A stretch of 24,618 nucleotides of DNA from positions 1 through 24,618 of the IMG/VR virus record IMGVR_UViG_3300007344_000228; one strand, written 5' to 3'. The stretch is from a virus. The notes under the pieces are model-generated. The model searched no databases. It was not told the DNA's origin and was given only the letters and a program-made list of their open reading frames with translations. Below, piece after piece: positions 1,422 to 11,161 of this stretch (its first letter is position 1; each line of letters opens with the position of its first letter). Position numbers and translations under genes: made by a program.

Positions 1422-2576
1422 ATGGCGGCTTTAATTGGATCAGGCATAAAGGCAGGCTTTAAAGCTGGCAAAAATCTTGTTGGTGATGCCGTGGATTATT
1501 TGGGCAATAAGTTTGGCGCTCTTCCAGAGGGAGAGCCTGCTGGGATTGGTCATAACAATCCACCGCCAGAGTTTAGAATGCCGACAGCTTTGGGTGCGCT
1601 GCAAAGATCGCCAGAAGATCAAGCATTTTTTGAAGAATTTCGGCCAGAAATGTATTATCACGGCACCCGTGGCGACTTTTCAGAATTTAACCCTGCTATG
1701 CTGGACTTGGGCGTACACGTTGGCACACCAGAGCAGGCCAATGAGCGTTTGCTGGACGTGGCAAAAATGAAGGGCGAAATACCCAGAGGAGGTAATTTCG
1801 ATAGCGACAACCCACCAAATATACCACAAGCAAGGGTAATGCCTGTTCGTGTGAACGTGCATAATCCACTTAGAATGCCTGACGTTGGTAATTGGAAAAG
1901 CAGTTCCAAAGTAATTGAAGAGCTTGAAAAGCAACAATACCAAAACTCTGGAATAGATATAGACGAAATAATGCAAGCCTACGATGACATTGCAATGAGC
2001 GATCCCATTGGAAATTATAGCGATCCAGATGATTGGATTGAAAGCATGGAAAACAGGGAATTGCTTGAGATAATTAACGAAGAAATCCAAAAGGCTGGAT
2101 ACGATGGCATTGTGTATAAAAACATCGTGGAAACAACGTCGATGGGTGAGGGCGAAATTATGCCCGAAGCAAAGGCCAAGATTGCTGAAATAAAAAAAGA
2201 ATTATTGGTTATAAATGACGCCGCGACTGCGCGAATGGAGGCGACAAGACCACTAGAGGCAACAGTTCCCCGTGCAGCGGATGAAACACTAACTGCATCC
2301 GAAGTAATAAAACGCATCAAGGCGGCAAACGATTGGGACATACAAAACTCTCCAGAAGGGTTTAAAACCCCAGAAGAAATGGCCCGTGAAGATCAACTTA
2401 TGGATTTGCGCGATGATTTGGAAACGCAGAGATATTCGCCTGACAGTATGATTATTCTAAATCCAGAAGATATCAGATCACCCAATGCGGCCTATGACGT
2501 AGACAGGCGGGACAGTTATGACATAATGTCGGACGCAGGCGCATTGGCTGGCATTCAAAACACAGGGGTCGCGTAA
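1422..2576 (+). CDS. Second ADP-ribosyltransferase-like protein (ART-PolyVal type), 384 residues
   Basis: Seen: an Ala/Gly/Lys-rich N-terminus (about 20 residues), an EPAGIGHNNPPPEF linker, then EMYYHGTRGDFSEFNP with the YHGT histidine, and GVHVGTPEQANERL, the matching position of the NAD-pocket strand and helix. PVRVNVHNPLRMPD follows. Towards the middle and end are KAGYDGIVYKN and DSMIILNPEDIRSPNAAYD, close to the GYDGIVYxN...DSYIVFxPxQIKS pattern typical of ART-PolyVal domains. I place the start at ATG 1422, just after the upstream stop, because the frame before it (from 1365) overlaps the preceding conserved gene. The stop overlaps the next gene's ATG (TAATG). The gene is not an obvious duplicate of the 351-1163 gene outside the YHGT motif. 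An NAD-dependent effector is inferred; the target is unknown. A structural role with an inactive ART fold is the alternative. Confidence 0.72.
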   Translation: MAALIGSGIKAGFKAGKNLVGDAVDYLGNKFGALPEGEPAGIGHNNPPPEFRMPTALGALQRSPEDQAFFEEFRPEMYYHGTRGDFSEFNPAMLDLGVHVGTPEQANERLLDVAKMKGEIPRGGNFDSDNPPNIPQARVMPVRVNVHNPLRMPDVGNWKSSSKVIEELEKQQYQNSGIDIDEIMQAYDDIAMSDPIGNYSDPDDWIESMENRELLEIINEEIQKAGYDGIVYKNIVETTSMGEGEIMPEAKAKIAEIKKELLVINDAATARMEATRPLEATVPRAADETLTASEVIKRIKAANDWDIQNSPEGFKTPEEMAREDQLMDLRDDLETQRYSPDSMIILNPEDIRSPNAAYDVDRRDSYDIMSDAGALAGIQNTGVA

Positions 2577-5485
2577 TGTCTTTTTTTACAGCAATAGCTA
2601 GGGTTATTAGGGGCGCAGCCGATGAAGTTTTAGATGTTGTCACTGACGTTATTACGCGCAGGGCTGACGATGATTTGGTTGATATAACGCCAGAAGTTGA
2701 CGGTGATTTTCAAGACCTTGGTGCGCTGGAGAATTTGGGGCAGGCAGAGCCACAAATGACCATTAACATCACGCCAGAGCAGCAGGCGGGTATTGATGCC
2801 ATGAGGGCGAGAGAGGCCGCAGCCGCAAATTTTGATGTTGAAACTGCGCGTATTGATATCACTAGAGCAAGAAACGCAGATATACTTAGAAATACAGTCG
2901 ATGTAGATCAGTTTTTGTCTGATCCAACAAACGAAGCAGAAGCAAGAGCGCAGGCCGCATTAGAATTAATTCGTGCTGGCAGACTAGATGAAGTTCTTGC
3001 AAATAATAACCTTGTAGATGCCCTGACAGATGGAGATGGGGAGGCATATATAGCGAGGCACTCAACCAGAAGGTATAACGCTGACGCTGAAGATGACATC
3101 GTTGACGCTGACTTTGAAGATATTGATATAGCCAATGCGGAGGAAGAAGCCAGAAACGCTAAAGGAATAGAAATTGCCCTGCGTGTTGAACCCGCATTTC
3201 AAAACCCCCAAGTAAGGCAGAGCGTGGAGCAGCTTAGAGTAAGTGGGTCAACAAATTCTGAAATACGAGAATATTTAAATGCGGTTAAAAGAGAGTATGC
3301 AGACGCTGGACGCCCAGTAAGCCGCGCCATAGACGCAACGAATACAGAGCAATTGCGTGAGCTTTACGGCAGATATGATTTGCCAATACCCAAGACAAAT
3401 GCAGAAGCAGCCGCCGCTAATTTAATTATAGAAGCGGCTAGGGGCGTTATTAATATTGGCCCTTCTCTGCGAAGAAATATCGACATTAATTACTTAAAGG
3501 CCCACGCGCCCGATGATGTCTATAAAAAACACGGCCCGACAATTCTTGAGGCCAAGCTGGCACAACAGGCGTCTGGAGACTTGGGTGTATTACCACAAAC
3601 AACTTCTTCTTATAGAACAAGAGTTGCGTTTTACAGTGCCGCACAAGATGCTGTGGAAAACCTCAAGGTAAAAAGCGGCAGCTATGAAAAGCTCAAGAAG
3701 CTGGCGCTCAAGCAGAGCGGCGTAAAGGCCAAAGAATTTGAATGGTCGGGGGCCGATGAGGCGTTTGAGGGTCGCACAGACGTTACCCCAGAAGAGCTTT
3801 CGGAATATTTACAGCAAAACACAGATTTAATTAGAGAAGAAGAAAAAATAGCGCAAGGCGTAATGAGAAGCGCATCTTCTGGCGGCTATGATGACGGCAT
3901 AGACGAGTTTTTAGATAGTCCAAATGGACAGGATTATATTAACGATTATTTGGAAATGTTGGAGGACAGTTTTAAAGACGATTTTACCTATCAGACAAAT
4001 ATGCAAGACATTAGCAGTTACGTTGCTGCTGATAATTTTGATGCACTAGATGAATTTGCAGAGAAAGTAGATGGAGTAAGCAGTGGCAGAGAGCTTGCTG
4101 CAAAATACCCTGATGGGTGGGTGGCAACTGATGCCTACTATGGAGAAACAAAAGTTTTTGGCTCAGAAGAAGCTGCCGCAAAGTGGGAATGGCGGGACAA
4201 CATAGACATTTATGAGCGACAGGCCCGTGAAAGCGCAGAAAATAATCTAAACGAAATGCGCGTCTATGATCCAGACGATTTCAACATGACACTTTACGGG
4301 TCTAATGCCCCAGTAGCCGATCCCGCTGAGTTGGAATATGCAAGTTATTTTCCCAGTGGCGGCACAGACATGACTGAAACCAGATATGTCTTTGATGATC
4401 CCACGGGCGATTTTTCAGAAGGATATTTTAGATCGGGTCATTTTGATGATGACGAAAATGTTGTGGCCCACGCACGAACAGGGCAGTTTCCAATAGAAAC
4501 TGGCGGCACGGCATATCACTTGGGTGAGGCTCAGTCGGATGTTCAGCAAGCGGCCAGAAAGGCAAAATCTAAAGGCACTGCAGGGCCAACAAGAACCCGT
4601 GAGCAAGAGCTTTTTAAAGAAAATTATGACCAACAAAAAGAACTTTTTAGACAAACTGTGGTCGGGTCTGAAAATGATTTAAGTAGAAAAGTTTTTGGGT
4701 ATGGAATAGGGCGAACTGGCATGAGGTTTCGTGACAATCCAGAAGCCCTTGCGGAATACAAAACAATTGTTGCTGATTTTTTAAATAGTAATAGAAGCCA
4801 GATATTCGGAAATCGAACAATTCTTAAACTTCAACCAGAAAATATAAGAGATGACCACTCATTTTTTGAAGGCACTAAGGGCAGCACAAATGAATTAAAT
4901 GTTAAATTAAATGAATTTGCTAAATATATTCAAGAAAATAAAGACAAACTGCCAGAGCCATATACTGCATGGGCTGATGTTCATACAGGACTATCTCCCA
5001 TGATACAAAAACAATCTGATGAATTGGGAAAACTTGAGGCGTCTGGCATAAATGTGGAAAACACAACTGTGGGCGCACCAATGCTTGAAAGCACAGATGC
5101 GTGGCTCGACATGGTTCTTCGCAGGCAGCTAAATGACGCTATCGCAAGTGGTGCAGATTATCTAACGCTGCCAAACCCACAAATGGTTAAAGACTACACG
5201 GGTGGAGACTTTGAGGGACACAGGCAGTTTTATGGAAATATCGCGCCGAAAAACTTAATGAATATTGTAAAGCCTGCTGACCCAACAGCAGATTTCGTTC
5301 CCTTGAGAATGACAACAGGCAAGCAGCCAGAAGATGTGTTGGGCCTGCCACTGACAAAAGATTTAATGCTTGGCCTTCGCAAAATGGGTATGCCAAAGTA
5401 TGTGGTGCCGTTTGGGGGCGTTGGCCTTGGTACATTGGGGGCAGTGACCGAAGATGAAGAGATGGCAACAGGAGGTGGCTTGTAA
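2576..5485 (+). CDS. Large polyvalent-domain phage protein, 969 residues
   Basis: The longest gene in the window. Seen: an acidic helical N-terminal third containing ALELIRAGRLDEV (about 128-140), which echoes ILELRQAGRSDEV in the first ART-like gene; a middle acidic helical part; then a recognisable large-polyvalent-protein-associated domain: SGHFDDDENVVAHARTG (620-636), HLGEAQSDVQQAARKA (from about 648) and STDAWLDMVLRRQLNDA with ASGADYLTLPN (839-868). These correspond to the GHF..N.LAH.R, E.QSD..Q.AR and W..L.LKR...A...GYD.I steps I know for this domain, found with ART and other effector modules in phage and conjugative-element polyproteins. The biochemical role of the domain is unknown. 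The C-terminus is Gly-rich with a short hydrophobic stretch. It ends TAATG into the next gene. It could be injected with the DNA or act in the infected cell; a virion structural role is possible. Confidence 0.7.
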   Translation: MSFFTAIARVIRGAADEVLDVVTDVITRRADDDLVDITPEVDGDFQDLGALENLGQAEPQMTINITPEQQAGIDAMRAREAAAANFDVETARIDITRARNADILRNTVDVDQFLSDPTNEAEARAQAALELIRAGRLDEVLANNNLVDALTDGDGEAYIARHSTRRYNADAEDDIVDADFEDIDIANAEEEARNAKGIEIALRVEPAFQNPQVRQSVEQLRVSGSTNSEIREYLNAVKREYADAGRPVSRAIDATNTEQLRELYGRYDLPIPKTNAEAAAANLIIEAARGVINIGPSLRRNIDINYLKAHAPDDVYKKHGPTILEAKLAQQASGDLGVLPQTTSSYRTRVAFYSAAQDAVENLKVKSGSYEKLKKLALKQSGVKAKEFEWSGADEAFEGRTDVTPEELSEYLQQNTDLIREEEKIAQGVMRSASSGGYDDGIDEFLDSPNGQDYINDYLEMLEDSFKDDFTYQTNMQDISSYVAADNFDALDEFAEKVDGVSSGRELAAKYPDGWVATDAYYGETKVFGSEEAAAKWEWRDNIDIYERQARESAENNLNEMRVYDPDDFNMTLYGSNAPVADPAELEYASYFPSGGTDMTETRYVFDDPTGDFSEGYFRSGHFDDDENVVAHARTGQFPIETGGTAYHLGEAQSDVQQAARKAKSKGTAGPTRTREQELFKENYDQQKELFRQTVVGSENDLSRKVFGYGIGRTGMRFRDNPEALAEYKTIVADFLNSNRSQIFGNRTILKLQPENIRDDHSFFEGTKGSTNELNVKLNEFAKYIQENKDKLPEPYTAWADVHTGLSPMIQKQSDELGKLEASGINVENTTVGAPMLESTDAWLDMVLRRQLNDAIASGADYLTLPNPQMVKDYTGGDFEGHRQFYGNIAPKNLMNIVKPADPTADFVPLRMTTGKQPEDVLGLPLTKDLMLGLRKMGMPKYVVPFGGVGLGTLGAVTEDEEMATGGGL

Positions 5486-6477: not shown

Positions 6478-6561
6478 ATGAAATATGGTAAAAAGAAAAC
6501 TGCAAAGGTTGTAAAAAAGAAAAAAAAGAATAAAAAGAAATCAATGAAAAGGGGATACTGA
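6478..6561 (+). CDS. Lysine-rich micropeptide, 27 residues
   Basis: A short reading frame, ATG 6478 to TGA 6559-6561, encodes MKYGKKKTAKVVKKKKKN followed by KKKSMKRGY. Fourteen of 27 residues are Lys and one is Arg. It has its own ribosome site, AAAGG at 6466-6470 followed by an A-run, and its stop overlaps the next ATG (TGATG), matching the gene packing of the rest of the window. I recall very short Lys-rich peptides ending in a GGY/GY-like tail near the head genes of other marine phages. Such charge suggests binding to DNA, RNA or the acidic scaffold, but that is inference. The alternative is chance coding in an A-rich leader. Confidence 0.55.
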   Translation: MKYGKKKTAKVVKKKKKNKKKSMKRGY

Positions 6562-6683
6562 TGACAGACAATAAAGACGTAACTGTACACGTCACAGGCG
6601 TCTCCATGTCGGGAGGCGTTAAGAATGACAATAAGCGATCTGCTCCAGCAGATCAGAAACAATCTGGAAAAGAGACGGCTTGA
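6561..6683 (+). CDS. Possible small ORF, 40 residues, overlapping the next gene
   Basis: The ATG at 6561 overlaps the micropeptide's TGA. The frame encodes MTDNKDVTVHVTGVSMSGG then a polar tail KNDNKRSAPADQKQSGKETA and stops at 6681-6683, inside the following gene (overlap 59 bases). In favour: the coupled start, and a hydrophilic, non-shadow-like composition. Against: the large overlap, which is greater than elsewhere in this window, and no family I recognise. It could instead be leader sequence for the better-supported gene at 6625. No function proposed. Confidence 0.35.
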   Translation: MTDNKDVTVHVTGVSMSGGVKNDNKRSAPADQKQSGKETA

Positions 6684-6822
6684 AATAGCTGACAGTATGC
6701 TTCGGGGTCGAATGTCTGACTTTGAAGCATATCACAAAAACGTGGGTATTGCAGAGGGGCTAGAACAAGCATCTGACGTAATACATGACACGATCAAAAG
6801 CATAAACAAAGAGGATGAATAA
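6625..6822 (+). CDS. Conserved small helical phage protein, 65 residues
   Basis: Start ATG 6625 with GGGAGG at 6610-6615. The protein reads as one long helix pair: ISDLLQQIRNNLEKRRLEIA, DSMLRGRMSDFEAYHKNVG, IAEGLEQASDVIHDTIKSI. The LEKRRxEIADxMLxGxxxDFxxYxxxVGIAxGL pattern is familiar from marine phages, where the gene sits in the head region without assigned function. The small size and coiled-coil character suggest a protein partner role, perhaps in head assembly. It lies two bases upstream of the co-chaperonin gene and is probably translated with it. Confidence 0.75.
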   Translation: MTISDLLQQIRNNLEKRRLEIADSMLRGRMSDFEAYHKNVGIAEGLEQASDVIHDTIKSINKEDE

Positions 6823-6824
6823 CC

Positions 6825-7229
6825 ATGTCTCATCAACATGACCGTATATACACAGATGAAGAAACCAGTGCGACCATTGGTTCCCATCAAATCCCAATTC
6901 CCATGAATTGGAAGGTCTTGGTTCAGCCAAATCAGGTAAAAATGAAGACCGCAGGCGGCATTCTGCTGCCAGACACCTCAAAGGACAACGAGGAATACCT
7001 GACCGCCCACGGCACCGTCTGTGCAATGGGTGACTTAGCGTATCGTGACCGCGACACAGGAGAACGCTGGAAGTCTAGCGTATTGCCAAAAATCGGTGAT
7101 CGCGTGACCTACGGTAAATACGCTGGTCAGAAAATCGTTGTGAAGGGCGTAAAGTTTTTATTGCTTAATGACGATGAGCTAACGTCCATTTTACCAGACG
7201 GCGTCGAAGTCGCCGCATATTTGGGGTAG
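6825..7229 (+). CDS. Phage GroES-like co-chaperonin, 134 residues
   Basis: Likely the lid for the host GroEL ring, helping fold phage capsid proteins, as T4 gp31 does. Seen: after a 25-residue polar N-terminal extension, NWKVLVQPNQVKMKTAGG (28-45) gives the first strand and a mobile loop with the GGILL hydrophobic contact (44-48), then LPDTSKDNEE, HGTVCAMGDLA, GDRVTYGKYAGQKIVVKG and FLLLNDDELTSIL, all in GroES order. The usual GDxVxYxKYAGxxV core is very clear. It is longer than the roughly 95-residue bacterial GroES because of the N-terminal extension and an insertion between the two middle strands (DRDTGERWKSS). The gene is directly before the scaffold and capsid genes, fitting a role in head assembly. 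Confidence 0.88.
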   Translation: MSHQHDRIYTDEETSATIGSHQIPIPMNWKVLVQPNQVKMKTAGGILLPDTSKDNEEYLTAHGTVCAMGDLAYRDRDTGERWKSSVLPKIGDRVTYGKYAGQKIVVKGVKFLLLNDDELTSILPDGVEVAAYLG

Positions 7230-7233
7230 AGCC

Positions 7234-8154
7234 ATGTCGGAACAAGAGAAAATTCTTGAAGAAATCGAGGCCGAAATCCAAGCGGCCAAGGAAGGCAAGG
7301 AAGATGATTTTGAAATAGAAATCACCGACGAGCCGAAGCCAAAGCCTGAGAAGCCACAGGAAGACCCTGTGGAGGCCGCTGATGATCAGGAGCCAGACTA
7401 TGGGCCAAAGGTGCAGAAGCGCATTAGCAAGCTCGTAGCGCAGCGCAGAGAGGCTGAAATACAAGCGCGGCAAATACAAGAGCAGAACGCGCAACTGCAA
7501 AAGCGGCTAGAGCGTCTGGAGCAGGGATCGCAGCAAAACGCTGAACAGGAGTTTAACGCCCGATACCAGCAAACAAAGCAGGCGCTGCACAAGGCGGTTG
7601 AAGAGGGCGACACAGAGGCCCAAGTCAACTTTCAAGAGCAAATGGCAGACATGAGAGCGGCCATGCGCGTGGCACAGGCCACCGATCAGTATCGGCGGCA
7701 GGATATGCAACGACAGCAGCAACGCCAACAACAGCAGCCACAGCGTCAGCAACAAGCGCAAGGCAATCAGCCACCTGAGAAAGCAATGTCATGGTGGCAG
7801 CAAAATAACTGGTTTAATGCCACAGGTTTTGAACGAGAAACAGCCGCTGCACGGGCCATAGATGTGCAATTAGATTTGGAAGGGTTCGACAAGAATAGCG
7901 ACGAATATTACGCGCAACTTAACGGACGTTTACAAAAAGTATTTCCTGAGTTAAAGTCAGGGCCAAGTCCGAAGCAAAGGCCAAAAGGTAGGTCTCCAGT
8001 CGCCCCCACTACGGGCGGGTCTTCAGCTTATAAGGGCAATCGTGTGCGTATGACGCAAGAGCAGCTTAGAATGGCTAGGGAACTTGGTATAAACGATGAA
8101 CGTGGTCTCAAAAAATACGAAGCCGAAATTCGCCGTCAACAGAGGGAACAATAG
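7234..8154 (+). CDS. Capsid scaffolding protein, 306 residues
   Basis: Inner scaffold that guides procapsid assembly and is then removed. Seen: an acidic N-terminal part (to about residue 55, e.g. EEIEAEIQAAKEGKEDDFEI), a coiled-coil core starting near VQKRISKLVAQRREAEIQ and running past QLQKRLERLEQ, a Gln/Arg-rich low-complexity stretch (about 157-178), a short hydrophobic MSWWQQNNWF patch, and a basic C-terminus rich in Arg and Lys (QRPKGRSPV...RRQQREQ) of the kind that contacts coat protein. Composition, size and position just upstream of the decoration and capsid genes agree. No serine-protease motif is visible, so a fused protease is unlikely. The Q-run has no frameshift. Confidence 0.82.
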   Translation: MSEQEKILEEIEAEIQAAKEGKEDDFEIEITDEPKPKPEKPQEDPVEAADDQEPDYGPKVQKRISKLVAQRREAEIQARQIQEQNAQLQKRLERLEQGSQQNAEQEFNARYQQTKQALHKAVEEGDTEAQVNFQEQMADMRAAMRVAQATDQYRRQDMQRQQQRQQQQPQRQQQAQGNQPPEKAMSWWQQNNWFNATGFERETAAARAIDVQLDLEGFDKNSDEYYAQLNGRLQKVFPELKSGPSPKQRPKGRSPVAPTTGGSSAYKGNRVRMTQEQLRMARELGINDERGLKKYEAEIRRQQREQ

Positions 8155-8156
8155 TC

Positions 8157-8639
8157 ATGCCTGAGAAAAGAAATGTTCGTGCAGAACAATCACGATCTTC
8201 CACCCGCGACGAGCAGTCTCGCACAGAAGCGGCGTGGAAACCACCAGCACTGTTGGACGCACCAGAAGCCCGTCCCGGCTATGTCCAACGCTGGGTCGCA
8301 ACCTCGATTCAAGGGAAGGACACCCCCGACAACGTGTATAAAAGAATGCGCGAAGGTTGGGAGCCACGCTCTGCTGACACTGTGAAAGAAAAGTTGTTTC
8401 CGACTATCAATCATGGGCAGTGGACAGGATCAATTGGGATTGAAGGAATGTTGCTTTGCGAAATGCCAAAGGAACGTCATGCCGCGCAAAAACGGTATTA
8501 CGAAGGCAAAAACGAAGAGCAAAATGAAGCAGTCTCAGGAGAGCTTGATGCGTTTGGACGGCGTAGTGGGCAGACGTTCTATCAAGAACGTAAGTCCGAA
8601 GTAAGTCGCGGCAGAACACTTTCTGCCATGAGCGATTAA
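8157..8639 (+). CDS. Conserved head-region phage protein of unknown role, 160 residues
   Basis: Lies between scaffold and decoration genes. Seen: a polar N-terminus, then PPALLDAPEARPGYVQRWVA, a GKDTPDNVYKRMREGWEPR stretch, FPTINHGQWTGSIGIEGMLL with CEMPKERHAAQKRYY, and a charged tail. The LDAPxARxGYxQRWV...REGWxPR...GxIGIEGMxLCEMP layout is a recurring marine phage family at this same location; I know no function. A link to scaffold or capsid maturation is inferred only from order. The start ATG at 8157 has AGAGGGA about 12 bases upstream. No signal peptide or membrane stretch is visible. Confidence 0.75.
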   Translation: MPEKRNVRAEQSRSSTRDEQSRTEAAWKPPALLDAPEARPGYVQRWVATSIQGKDTPDNVYKRMREGWEPRSADTVKEKLFPTINHGQWTGSIGIEGMLLCEMPKERHAAQKRYYEGKNEEQNEAVSGELDAFGRRSGQTFYQERKSEVSRGRTLSAMSD

Positions 8640-8662: not shown

Positions 8663-9214
8663 ATGGCAAATGTAGACGCCGCATTCGGGTTTGTACCCGT
8701 CCGTCACATGAGCGGTAATGCACCTCGCACCAATAAATATACCATTACGTCTGGTTTGGCTGAGAACATCTTTTCGGGTGATCTTTGCATTCTGACAGCA
8801 GATGGGGTTATCACACCTCACACTGCGACAGAAACCAACAATATCGGTGTGTTTGACGGTGTGTCGTACACTGCCTCTGATGGTTCATATGTATACAGTG
8901 AGTATTGGCCGTCAGGAACAACAGCTACAGATATATGTGCATATGTTTATGACGATCCATATATCGTGTATAAAGTCCAGTCTGATGGAGCGCCTGCACA
9001 GACAAATATCGGCAACTGCGCCGATGTTGTTGCTGGAACAGGTTCCACAATAACTGGAAGGTCAGCGTTTGAGTTGAACTCAACAATGGGTACTGGCACA
9101 GCAAGTGCCAAAATCATCGCATTGTATGATTCACCAGATAATGCTTTCGGCACAAATGCTGTGGTTGAGGTGCTTGTAAACGAGCATATTCTCAAAGCCA
9201 CTGCTGGCATATAG
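8663..9214 (+). CDS. Head decoration-like structural protein, 183 residues
   Basis: Probably coats the capsid surface, stabilising it. Seen: start MANVDAAFGFVPVRHMSGNA with TAGGAG upstream, then alternating beta-rich segments (IFSGDLCILTADGVITPH; IGVFDGVSYTASDGSYVY), a PYIVYKVQSDGAPAQTNIG part and a VVEVLVNEHILKAT tail. The GFxPVRHxxG opening immediately before a capsid gene is typical for this phage family, as is the Thr/Ser/Gly-rich beta composition. It is longer than lambda gpD (about 110 residues), so an equivalent role by position is likely but not a homology claim. AGGAGG after its stop serves the capsid gene. Confidence 0.72.
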   Translation: MANVDAAFGFVPVRHMSGNAPRTNKYTITSGLAENIFSGDLCILTADGVITPHTATETNNIGVFDGVSYTASDGSYVYSEYWPSGTTATDICAYVYDDPYIVYKVQSDGAPAQTNIGNCADVVAGTGSTITGRSAFELNSTMGTGTASAKIIALYDSPDNAFGTNAVVEVLVNEHILKATAGI

Positions 9215-9227
9215 GAGGGCATGAACA

Positions 9228-10136
9228 ATGGCAATGAATAGAGCGAGTTTTGCAAAAACTCTAGAGCCGGGTCTGAACACTCTCTTTGGACTTGAGTACG
9301 ACAGCTATCCCGCTGAATACGAAGCCGTCTTTGAATCGAATAGCTCTCAAAAGGCTTACGAGGAAGACGTACTTTTGAGTGGATTTGGACAAGCGCCAAC
9401 AAAAACTGAAGGTGGAGCCGTCTCTTACGACAGCGCAAGCCAACAGTGGACTGCGCGTTACCAGCACGAAACCATCGCCTTGGCGTTCTCAATCACTGAG
9501 GAAGCTGAAGAAGATGGTCAGTATGGTTCGCTTGCTTCGCGCTACACAAAGGCGCTGGCACGTTCAATGGCATCGACCAAAGAGATCAAGGCTGCTAACG
9601 TCTTGAATAACGCTCAAGCCGCTGGATTTACTGGTGGTGACGGTCAAACCATGTTGAGTGCATCGCACCCAACACAGAACGGCAACCAGTCCAACGTGCT
9701 TGCCACGGCGGCTGATCTGTCCGAAACATCTCTTGAGTCGATCCTGATTAACATCAGCGACATGAAAGATGATCGTGGCCTTCGCATTGCGGCACAAGGT
9801 ATGCAATTGGTTATTCCAACTGCTTATCAGTTCACCGCAGAGCGTCTGCTGGAATCAGCATTGCGTCCAAGCACTGCCGATAACGACATCAACGCGATTA
9901 AGGCTGGTGGTTATCTGCCACGGGGCTATCACATCATGCGCCGTCTGACTGATCCAGATGCGTTCTTTATTACCACTGACGTTCCAGATGGTCTGAAGCA
10001 CTTCACCCGTTCAGCAATGAAAAAGGGCATGGAAGGCGACTTTGAGACTGGCAACGTGCGGTATAAAGTTCGTGAGCGTTACAGCTTCGGTTTTACCGAC
10101 TGGCGCGGCATCTTCGGAACCGAAGGCGCAGCATAA
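9228..10136 (+). CDS. Major capsid protein, 302 residues, Mu gpT-like/HK97-fold family
   Basis: Forms the capsid shell. Seen: MNRASFAKTLEPGLNTLFGL with EYDSYPAEYEAVFE, then AYEEDVLLSGFGQAPTKTEG, ARYQHETIALAFSITEEA, SMASTKEIKAANVLNNAQAAG, and C-terminal FETGNVRYKVRERYSFGFTD followed by WRGIFGT. This order matches the Mu-gpT-type head subunit family, about 300 residues and without a cleaved delta domain. The strong AGGAGG ribosome site at 9213-9218 precedes ATG 9228; the ATG at 9234 is a less likely start. A rho-independent terminator directly follows, so capsid transcription can be ended there, separating it from the tail genes. The scaffold is a separate upstream gene. Confidence 0.88.
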   Translation: MAMNRASFAKTLEPGLNTLFGLEYDSYPAEYEAVFESNSSQKAYEEDVLLSGFGQAPTKTEGGAVSYDSASQQWTARYQHETIALAFSITEEAEEDGQYGSLASRYTKALARSMASTKEIKAANVLNNAQAAGFTGGDGQTMLSASHPTQNGNQSNVLATAADLSETSLESILINISDMKDDRGLRIAAQGMQLVIPTAYQFTAERLLESALRPSTADNDINAIKAGGYLPRGYHIMRRLTDPDAFFITTDVPDGLKHFTRSAMKKGMEGDFETGNVRYKVRERYSFGFTDWRGIFGTEGAA

Positions 10137-10171: not shown

Positions 10172-10200
10172 GGGGCGGTCTTCGGATCGCCCCTTTTTTT
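10172..10200 (+). terminator. Rho-independent terminator after the capsid gene
   Basis: A 9-bp stem (GGGGCGGTC with GATCGCCCC, one G.U pair) closes a stable TTCG tetraloop and is followed by seven T residues. It lies 36 bases after the capsid stop. Its core GGGCGGTCTTCGGATCGCCC recurs identically at 11055-11074. Confidence 0.92.
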
Positions 10201-10237
10201 ATTTTAAATAAAAGTGCATTTTATTTGTATCTGCCTA

Positions 10238-10265
10238 TTGTATTCTAGATTGTATCCCTTATATC
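10238..10265 (+). promoter_or_regulatory. Weak candidate promoter for the two-gene cassette
   Basis: In the AT-rich gap after the terminator, TTGTAT at 10238-10243 and TATATC at 10260-10265 are 16 bases apart, an imperfect sigma70-like pair (3/6 and 4/6 matches by eye). Genes downstream of a strong terminator need some promoter or readthrough, which is the main argument; a phage-specific promoter would look different. Confidence 0.25.
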
Positions 10266-10294
10266 AATCATAAGAGAAACAGAGGAGAAAAAAA

Positions 10295-10696
10295 ATGGAT
10301 CGCAGTCAAGTAGCAGACGTATACCTCTCAGACTGGCAGTATGAGTGGAGAAATCCTTACGCTGAAGAGCCAAGCGATAACGTAGCGACCAATTTTTATG
10401 TGACCATTGCCGATCATAGCGGCAGAACGTGGTGCCATAATTTTGGTCTATCATCTGCAAGTCACCCATACTGGGAGTGCGAAGAGCGTATTAATAAATT
10501 GGTTGAGCGCATAAAAAATCATTTGGAAGCTGGTGGTTCAATAAATCTGGATCATTGGGATGAAGGCACACCTCGTTATGGATCAGAGGCTTGGATACGT
10601 TTTGAGCGCGAAGAGCTTCAGCCAGTGGGAATTGCATTGTCAGAAGGCCGTCTGCATGAAGATGATCTTTGTGGAAGACTGCGTGGATACTTTTAA
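10295..10696 (+). CDS. Unrecognised phage protein, 133 residues (cassette gene 1)
   Basis: First gene of the terminator-bounded cassette, with ribosome site AGAGGAG at 10281-10287 before ATG 10295. The protein is acidic and rich in Trp, Tyr and Glu: VYLSDWQYEWRNPYAEEP, an ADHSGRTWCHNFGLSSA beta part, ASHPYWECEERINKLVERI helix, then DHWDEGTPRYGSEAWIRFE and a basic-acidic C-terminus. Two cysteines and several His are scattered without a clear metal site. The PRYGSEAW stretch reminds me of short unassigned proteins near marine phage capsid genes. No signal peptide or membrane segment. Not recognisable as a repressor or anti-CRISPR, though small size and moron-like context leave this open. Confidence 0.7.
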   Translation: MDRSQVADVYLSDWQYEWRNPYAEEPSDNVATNFYVTIADHSGRTWCHNFGLSSASHPYWECEERINKLVERIKNHLEAGGSINLDHWDEGTPRYGSEAWIRFEREELQPVGIALSEGRLHEDDLCGRLRGYF

Positions 10697-10703
10697 TCAA
10701 AGC

Positions 10704-10720
10704 GGGGGCCACGCGCCCCC
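10704..10720 (+). other. GC-rich hairpin between the two cassette genes
   Basis: GGGGGC and GCCCCC (10704-10709 and 10715-10720) form a 6-bp stem with loop CACGC, between the stop of the 133-residue gene and the ribosome site of the next. No T-run follows, so I read it as an mRNA-stabilising or attenuating hairpin, not a full terminator. Confidence 0.55.
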
Positions 10721-10739
10721 ATTCAACTAGGAGGAAAAA

Positions 10740-11012
10740 ATGAAAATTACAAAAATATATGATGGTCGGACGGTGGGAGAAATGGACGCAGGCCGTAAGT
10801 TTTTTATTCGGGCAGAGTTTTCTAAAGACGGTCACAATTATGTGGGATTTAAGGATGGTGACAAATATCGTTTTTCTCGCTTAGTTATAAATGAAAATGG
10901 CTACAAAAAGCAGTATCTTGTTCCACGCAATTCACGCCTTGAGAAAGACATGCTGAACCTAATCGACGAAAACGAAAACAAAGTCAAAGCTGGAAGTTGT
11001 GTAAAATTTTAA
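10740..11012 (+). CDS. Unrecognised small basic phage protein, 90 residues (cassette gene 2)
   Basis: Second gene of the cassette. ATG 10740 has a strong TAGGAGG at 10728-10734. Seen: MKITKIYDGRTVGEMDAGRK, FFIRAEFSKDGHNYVGFKDG, YRFSRLVINENGYKKQYLVP, RNSRLEKDMLNLIDENENK. The start looks beta-rich with aromatic residues, and the end is a charged helix. Net charge looks basic. I do not recognise a family. The downstream terminator at 11052 ends the unit. Host-interaction or regulation is possible from context only. Confidence 0.65.
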   Translation: MKITKIYDGRTVGEMDAGRKFFIRAEFSKDGHNYVGFKDGDKYRFSRLVINENGYKKQYLVPRNSRLEKDMLNLIDENENKVKAGSCVKF

Positions 11013-11051
11013 AACACCAAAACATAACACTAACGCCGTTAGCGTTACAAA

Positions 11052-11083
11052 AAAGGGCGGTCTTCGGATCGCCCTTTCTTTTT
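11052..11083 (+). terminator. Rho-independent terminator closing the cassette
   Basis: An 11-bp stem AAAGGGCGGTC with GATCGCCCTTT, with one G.U pair, closes a TTCG loop and is followed by CTTTTT. The GC core is identical to the post-capsid terminator, while the outer base pairs differ (A-T here, G-C there). A smaller palindrome, TAACGC with GCGTTA, precedes it at about 11032-11048. Confidence 0.92.
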
Positions 11084-11117
11084 GTTCAGACCTGTTGTAT
11101 TGTGCCGACATCCCTGA

Positions 11118-11136
11118 CAGCCGCACAATGTGGCTG
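11118..11136 (+). other. Leader hairpin before the first post-cassette structural gene
   Basis: CAGCCGCA and TGTGGCTG form an 8-bp stem (one G.U) with a 3-base CAA loop, 25 bases before the next ATG. A competing 7-bp repeat, ATTGTGC (11099-11105) with GCACAAT (11123-11129), overlaps it. It could act as a leader stabiliser, an operator or chance pairing; a promoter must be near here if the terminator is efficient. Confidence 0.3.
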
Positions 11137-11161
11137 ACACTTGCCACGACAGGAGATCATC

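Follow-up and report, generated by a model that had tools for sequence, protein, structure and literature searches.

GroES lids encoded by phages are already known, including in relatives of the marine phage studied here; what we describe is their pairing with one capsid lineage. In T4, gp31 is thought to enlarge the chaperonin cage for the 56-kDa capsid protein gp23, and it is able to serve every E. coli client in place of GroES (PMC6318259). The 82 HTVC023P-type pelagiphages have 13 core genes, GroES among them (PMC9599517), and in the paper on Roseobacter phages CRP-901 and CRP-902 a figure legend labels the gene as GroES (PMC10149686).

The gene that we examined lies in a 24.6-kb linear IMG/VR fragment (the window, by which we mean the whole stretch of DNA analysed), and its best named matches were in CRP-901 (86.6% identity) and CRP-902 (85.8%). 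The CRP-901 record annotates its gene as GroES (CRP901_gp61) and has the gene order of the window; at 86–87% identity, with extension and neighbours alike, these are essentially one gene. We found no functional work on CRP901_gp61 or on the CRP-902 GroES. The HTVC023P-type proteins share the slot, the cassette and the long mobile loop with the window GroES, but they are only ~27–32% identical to it, have a roof segment of 17–18 aa and carry another extension. The initial annotation had called phage GroES genes within the head operon of a short-tailed phage uncommon, which did not hold: a broad range of phages have the gene in this slot, and it belongs to the published core genes of HTVC023P-type phages (PMC9599517). 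Within IMG/VR, 468 stretches encoded relatives of the window GroES. Phage-type GroES was also encoded on contigs from a Planctomycetaceae MAG (L172) and a Thalassolituus MAG (L173), both of which are probably misbinned phage DNA.

Fold, loop geometry and origin of the window GroES

The GroES gene and its parts are as follows:
6825–7229, + strand: GroES/Cpn10 co-chaperonin of phage lineage, 134 aa (Pfam PF00166, PHROG 3188, AF2 model against GroES structures)
6825–6899, + strand: N-terminal extension, residues 1–25 (pN/pS on residues 2–26; AF2 helix at 11–19)
6942–7013, + strand: mobile loop with GGILL (17 aa separate GG from the conserved Gly that follows; hosts 13)
7032–7094, + strand: roof segment DLAYRDRDTGERWKSSVLPKI (21 aa; E. 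coli 17; gp31 10)

The ORF at 6825–7229 is a true GroES/Cpn10 protein. It matched Pfam Cpn10 (PF00166) with an E value of 4.5e-15 and 55.9 bits, against a curated cut-off of 21.1, and PHROG 3188 (co-chaperonin GroES) with an E value of 3.4e-14, and all 63 members of alignment A4 matched the Cpn10 family. An AF2 model built from an input alignment of 63 sequences (mean pLDDT 78, pTM 0.74) had the GroES beta-barrel as its predicted fold; its best structure match was 8wuc (E = 1.5e-8, TM 0.72 by target length for the predicted structure), the nearest solved structures were bacterial and mitochondrial GroES, and the T4 gp31 structure (1g31) was matched weakly (E = 0.033). The GroES core reported earlier was borne out, in that GGILL and GDRVTYGKYAGQ both occur in the translation, in agreement with the family match and the predicted fold.

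As had also been noted, 25 residues precede the Cpn10 domain, which begins at residue 26. Across 32 distinct GroES sequences, pN/pS was 0.158 for residues 2–26, 0.113 for the core and 0.098 for the mobile loop, and since residues 2–26 are under purifying selection, the extension is coding and translated; on the same grounds we ruled out the internal ATG at M27 as the start. Residues 11–19 formed a helix in the AF2 model (block pLDDT ~71). The length of the extension is not conserved, with 3–68 residues preceding the Cpn10 domain in distant relatives.

The single insertion between strands described in the initial annotation proved to be two relative to E. coli, the mobile loop and the roof segment each being 4 residues longer. 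We measured the loop as the number of residues that separate the mobile-loop glycine (E. coli G24) from the conserved glycine that follows it (G38); residue-level alignment within the loop is uncertain, and the count for the window between these flanking glycines is independent of it. This segment was 13 aa long in all 38 host GroES and 17 in the window, and it was 17–18 aa long in 13 of 14 named phages (the exception being vir526, with 13) and in 56 of 60 representative contigs, so that the phage loop is 4–5 residues longer than in any of the 38 hosts. The mobile loop is lengthened, as it is in gp31, here by the segment following GG (17 versus 13 aa); in gp31 that segment spans 14 aa and the extra residues stand before the hydrophobic tripeptide, whereas those of the window stand after it, on the opposite flank. 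The tripeptide itself follows the glycines directly (GGILL, residues 44–48), was hydrophobic at 3/3 positions in 52 of 60 representative viral relatives, and is kept, together with the glycines, in most of the distant relatives.

The roof segment, 17 aa in most hosts and 8–25 aa across relatives of the window GroES, is 10 aa in gp31 and 21 aa in the window, which rules out a roofless lid of the gp31 type here. Short roofs do occur among the relatives, as in ct2os315 (9 aa); in MW202796 (L178), which has the same cassette, the roof segment is gp31-like with 9 residues, and roof length is therefore variable inside one lineage.

The phylogeny favoured a phage-lineage over a host-derived origin, a check that had been proposed with the initial annotation. 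In a tree of 113 rows and 104 columns, all 38 host GroES, drawn over one phylum plus three MAGs, formed one group behind a branch with SH-aLRT 100, with vir526 as the sole virus among them, and the window GroES fell outside it, grouping with CRP-901 (SH-aLRT 99). With so few alignment columns, most deep forks of this tree are unsettled, and a long-branch effect probably accounts for the joining of gp31 to some relatives. The window GroES shares its fold, tripeptide and glycines with bacterial GroES, which has a shorter loop and no extension. Membership in one family and an identity of ~35% to host GroES would fit a recent pickup of a host groES as an auxiliary gene. Both the tree and the loop segment (13 aa in 38/38 hosts versus 17–18 in almost all cassette phages) disfavour acquisition from a host, which we regard as extremely improbable.

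The head cassette and its probable transcript

The window GroES lies in a cassette comprising the following further features:
6625–6822, + strand: conserved small acidic protein, 65 aa, at the head of the cassette (phmmer links; same slot in 8 of 9 other cassette phages)
7234–8154, + strand: scaffold-like protein, 306 aa, Gln/Glu-rich (PHROG 28737, annotated as function unknown; position conserved)
8157–8639, + strand: p160, conserved cassette protein (PHROG 36003; conservation in the cassette)
8663–9214, + strand: p183, conserved cassette protein (PHROG 37556; conservation in the cassette)
9228–10136, + strand: major capsid protein of 302 aa and 32.9 kDa, put forward as the main client (Pfam PF25209, E = 3.9e-14; PHROG 371)
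10172–10193, + strand: intrinsic terminator stem-loop, very likely the end of the head transcript (GGGGCGGTCTTCGGATCGCCCC then TTTTTTTATT)

In agreement with the earlier description, GroES stands ahead of the scaffold-like and capsid genes, with the putative scaffold gene (7234–8154) adjoining it and the capsid gene (9228–10136) further downstream; the position and composition of the 306-aa protein suggest a scaffold role. The order of small ORF (~65 aa), GroES, scaffold-like protein, p160, p183 and capsid protein was common to CRP-901, HTVC023P, HTVC027P, 023Pt, Caulobacter phage RW, Planktothrix phage Pag-Yong1, DSL-LC04 and the groundwater phage ctpbd312, with slots equated by phmmer links, direct or via one another, and it extends over phage groups of Roseobacter, Pelagibacter, Caulobacter, cyanobacteria and groundwater. 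In Alcaligenes phage QDWS535, such links were found for GroES, p183 and the capsid protein only. T4 gene 31, in contrast, is not beside head genes.

Past the capsid gene, every one of 29 distinct relatives of the window group had a terminator-like stem, as against 0 of their shuffles; in more distant groups it was found less often. From this conserved terminator we take it as very likely that GroES and the capsid protein are co-transcribed, with the transcript ending at the stem-loop at 10172–10193.

Around the cassette we made several further observations. Nearly all cassette phages have the small acidic protein of ~65 aa directly 5′ of GroES, and a very lysine-rich candidate ORF of 27 codons (6479–6562) lies just 5′ of the cassette. 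The capsid gene is separated from the next structural gene by ~1 kb (10194–11140) that holds two ORFs of 133 and 90 aa with no Pfam match; the corresponding interval in CRP-901 is only ~140 bp.

Pairing of GroES with one capsid lineage

A tblastn search with the window capsid protein matched 21 of 50,697 phage records, and the same 21 were returned with a distant member of the lineage as query. GroES stood in the cassette in 18 of these 21 named records, and all 20 phages tested (leaving out MW202604, which equals MW202601 in length and capsid coordinates) carried some GroES, 18 in the cassette and 2 elsewhere; the 21 records include near-copies, which lowers the number of independent cases to perhaps a dozen. 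When IMG/VR contigs were picked by the capsid gene alone (four lineages, at least 3.6 kb upstream), GroES was found upstream in 181 of 181, these contigs being the ones nearest to four query proteins, near-copies included. No GroES was detected in T7-type marine podovirus controls, which have T7-type capsids (0/18 records, 0/80 loci). As a background, an E. coli GroES query matched 89 of 50,697 phage records, some of them apparently bacterial DNA; this number is a floor, because tblastn with one query has low sensitivity and proteins like gp31 would escape it. Distances between GroES proteins correlated with those between capsid proteins (Mantel r = 0.89, 68 taxa, 0/2000 permutations), a correlation equally expected from joint inheritance of neighbouring genes without functional pairing.

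The ct7ZZ929 lineage at first appeared to have lost the gene (0/5 upstream of the capsid gene), an explanation that we rejected once whole-record searches revealed another GroES in MW202601 and in G154. MW202601 has no cassette GroES, and its cpn10, which adjoins a gene for a single-stranded DNA-binding protein, scored highest to host GroES and has a loop segment of 21 aa. In the archaeal virus vir526, groS lies upstream of the terminase and not in the cassette.

The location of the gene among head genes and its variable N-terminal extension could be taken to mean that a GroES-fold protein was reused as a component of the virion or of head assembly and no longer works with GroEL. We consider this very unlikely, as the GroEL-contact tripeptide and glycines are kept in most of the distant relatives, the loop is under purifying selection, and phages without a cassette copy carry another GroES.

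Proposed role of the lid

Our preferred reading, which we hold to be likely, is that the phage-lineage GroES serves as a heptameric lid on host GroEL that is dedicated to head proteins, above all the 33-kDa major capsid protein. The phage GroES heptamer would cap host GroEL, to which its mobile loop may bind through the retained hydrophobic contact tripeptide (ILL), and the 4–5 extra loop residues would alter either the height of the lid or its affinity for GroEL. GroES would be made from one transcript with the small ORF, the scaffold-like protein, p160, p183 and the capsid protein, and its place on the capsid transcript implies that lid supply would track capsid synthesis. As the partner, a phage GroEL was considered and discarded, none being present in nine relatives of the window phage. 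We infer the capsid protein to be the client, and its need for the lid in folding is suggested by co-occurrence and operon position; the client could instead be the scaffold or another head protein. A capsid-specific lid for host GroEL, as first proposed, is thereby supported by family, position, capsid co-occurrence and the lack of a phage GroEL in those nine relatives, and only the claim of rarity and the full analogy to gp31 fall away.

From that analogy the role survives, both proteins being phage lids of GroES fold with a proposed or known tie to capsid folding and a lengthened mobile loop, while the roof, the loop flank, the gene position and the mass of the capsid protein differ (33–34 kDa in window-type cassettes versus 56 kDa for gp23). 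Capsid proteins of 33–34 kDa are well within the host cage, so cage size is unlikely to be the reason for the lid, and the oversize-client rationale of gp31 does not transfer. A 33-kDa protein should indeed fit under host GroES, which counts against the need for a private, dedicated lid. The lid might instead take over or supplement host GroES in general, directing GroEL towards phage proteins as a whole and having no particular tie to the capsid protein. In favour of this, a larger cage is superfluous for a 33-kDa capsid protein, and gp31 can stand in for GroES with every E. coli client (PMC6318259). We think this improbable, since GroES is strictly paired with one capsid lineage, even where its gene lies elsewhere, and nothing would keep a general helper within the head transcript.

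Returning to the dedicated lid, we advance more tentatively, with slightly less than even confidence, that a whole lineage of tailed-phage capsids depends on phage-made GroES: the head operon encodes a dedicated lid of distinctive loop geometry, an unrelated-looking GroES occurs elsewhere when that copy is missing, and this holds even though the host lid could accommodate so small a capsid protein. If so, the lid would act other than via cage size, for example through affinity, timing or cage chemistry. Should the pairing be functional, this abundant group of aquatic phages would be well suited to testing cleanly what phages gain from a chaperonin lid of their own. The explanation from T4, that the capsid protein exceeds what the host cage can take, fails for one of 33 kDa. 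The cultured members CRP-901, HTVC023P and Caulobacter phage RW make the pairing testable.

Elsewhere in the window, the ORF at 1365–2576 is ADP-ribosyltransferase-like (ART-PolyVal, E = 2e-4, below the cut-off), and the ORFs at 351–1163 and 2576–5485, with no Pfam match, display by eye YHG/YHL-type motifs similar to those of 1365–2576.
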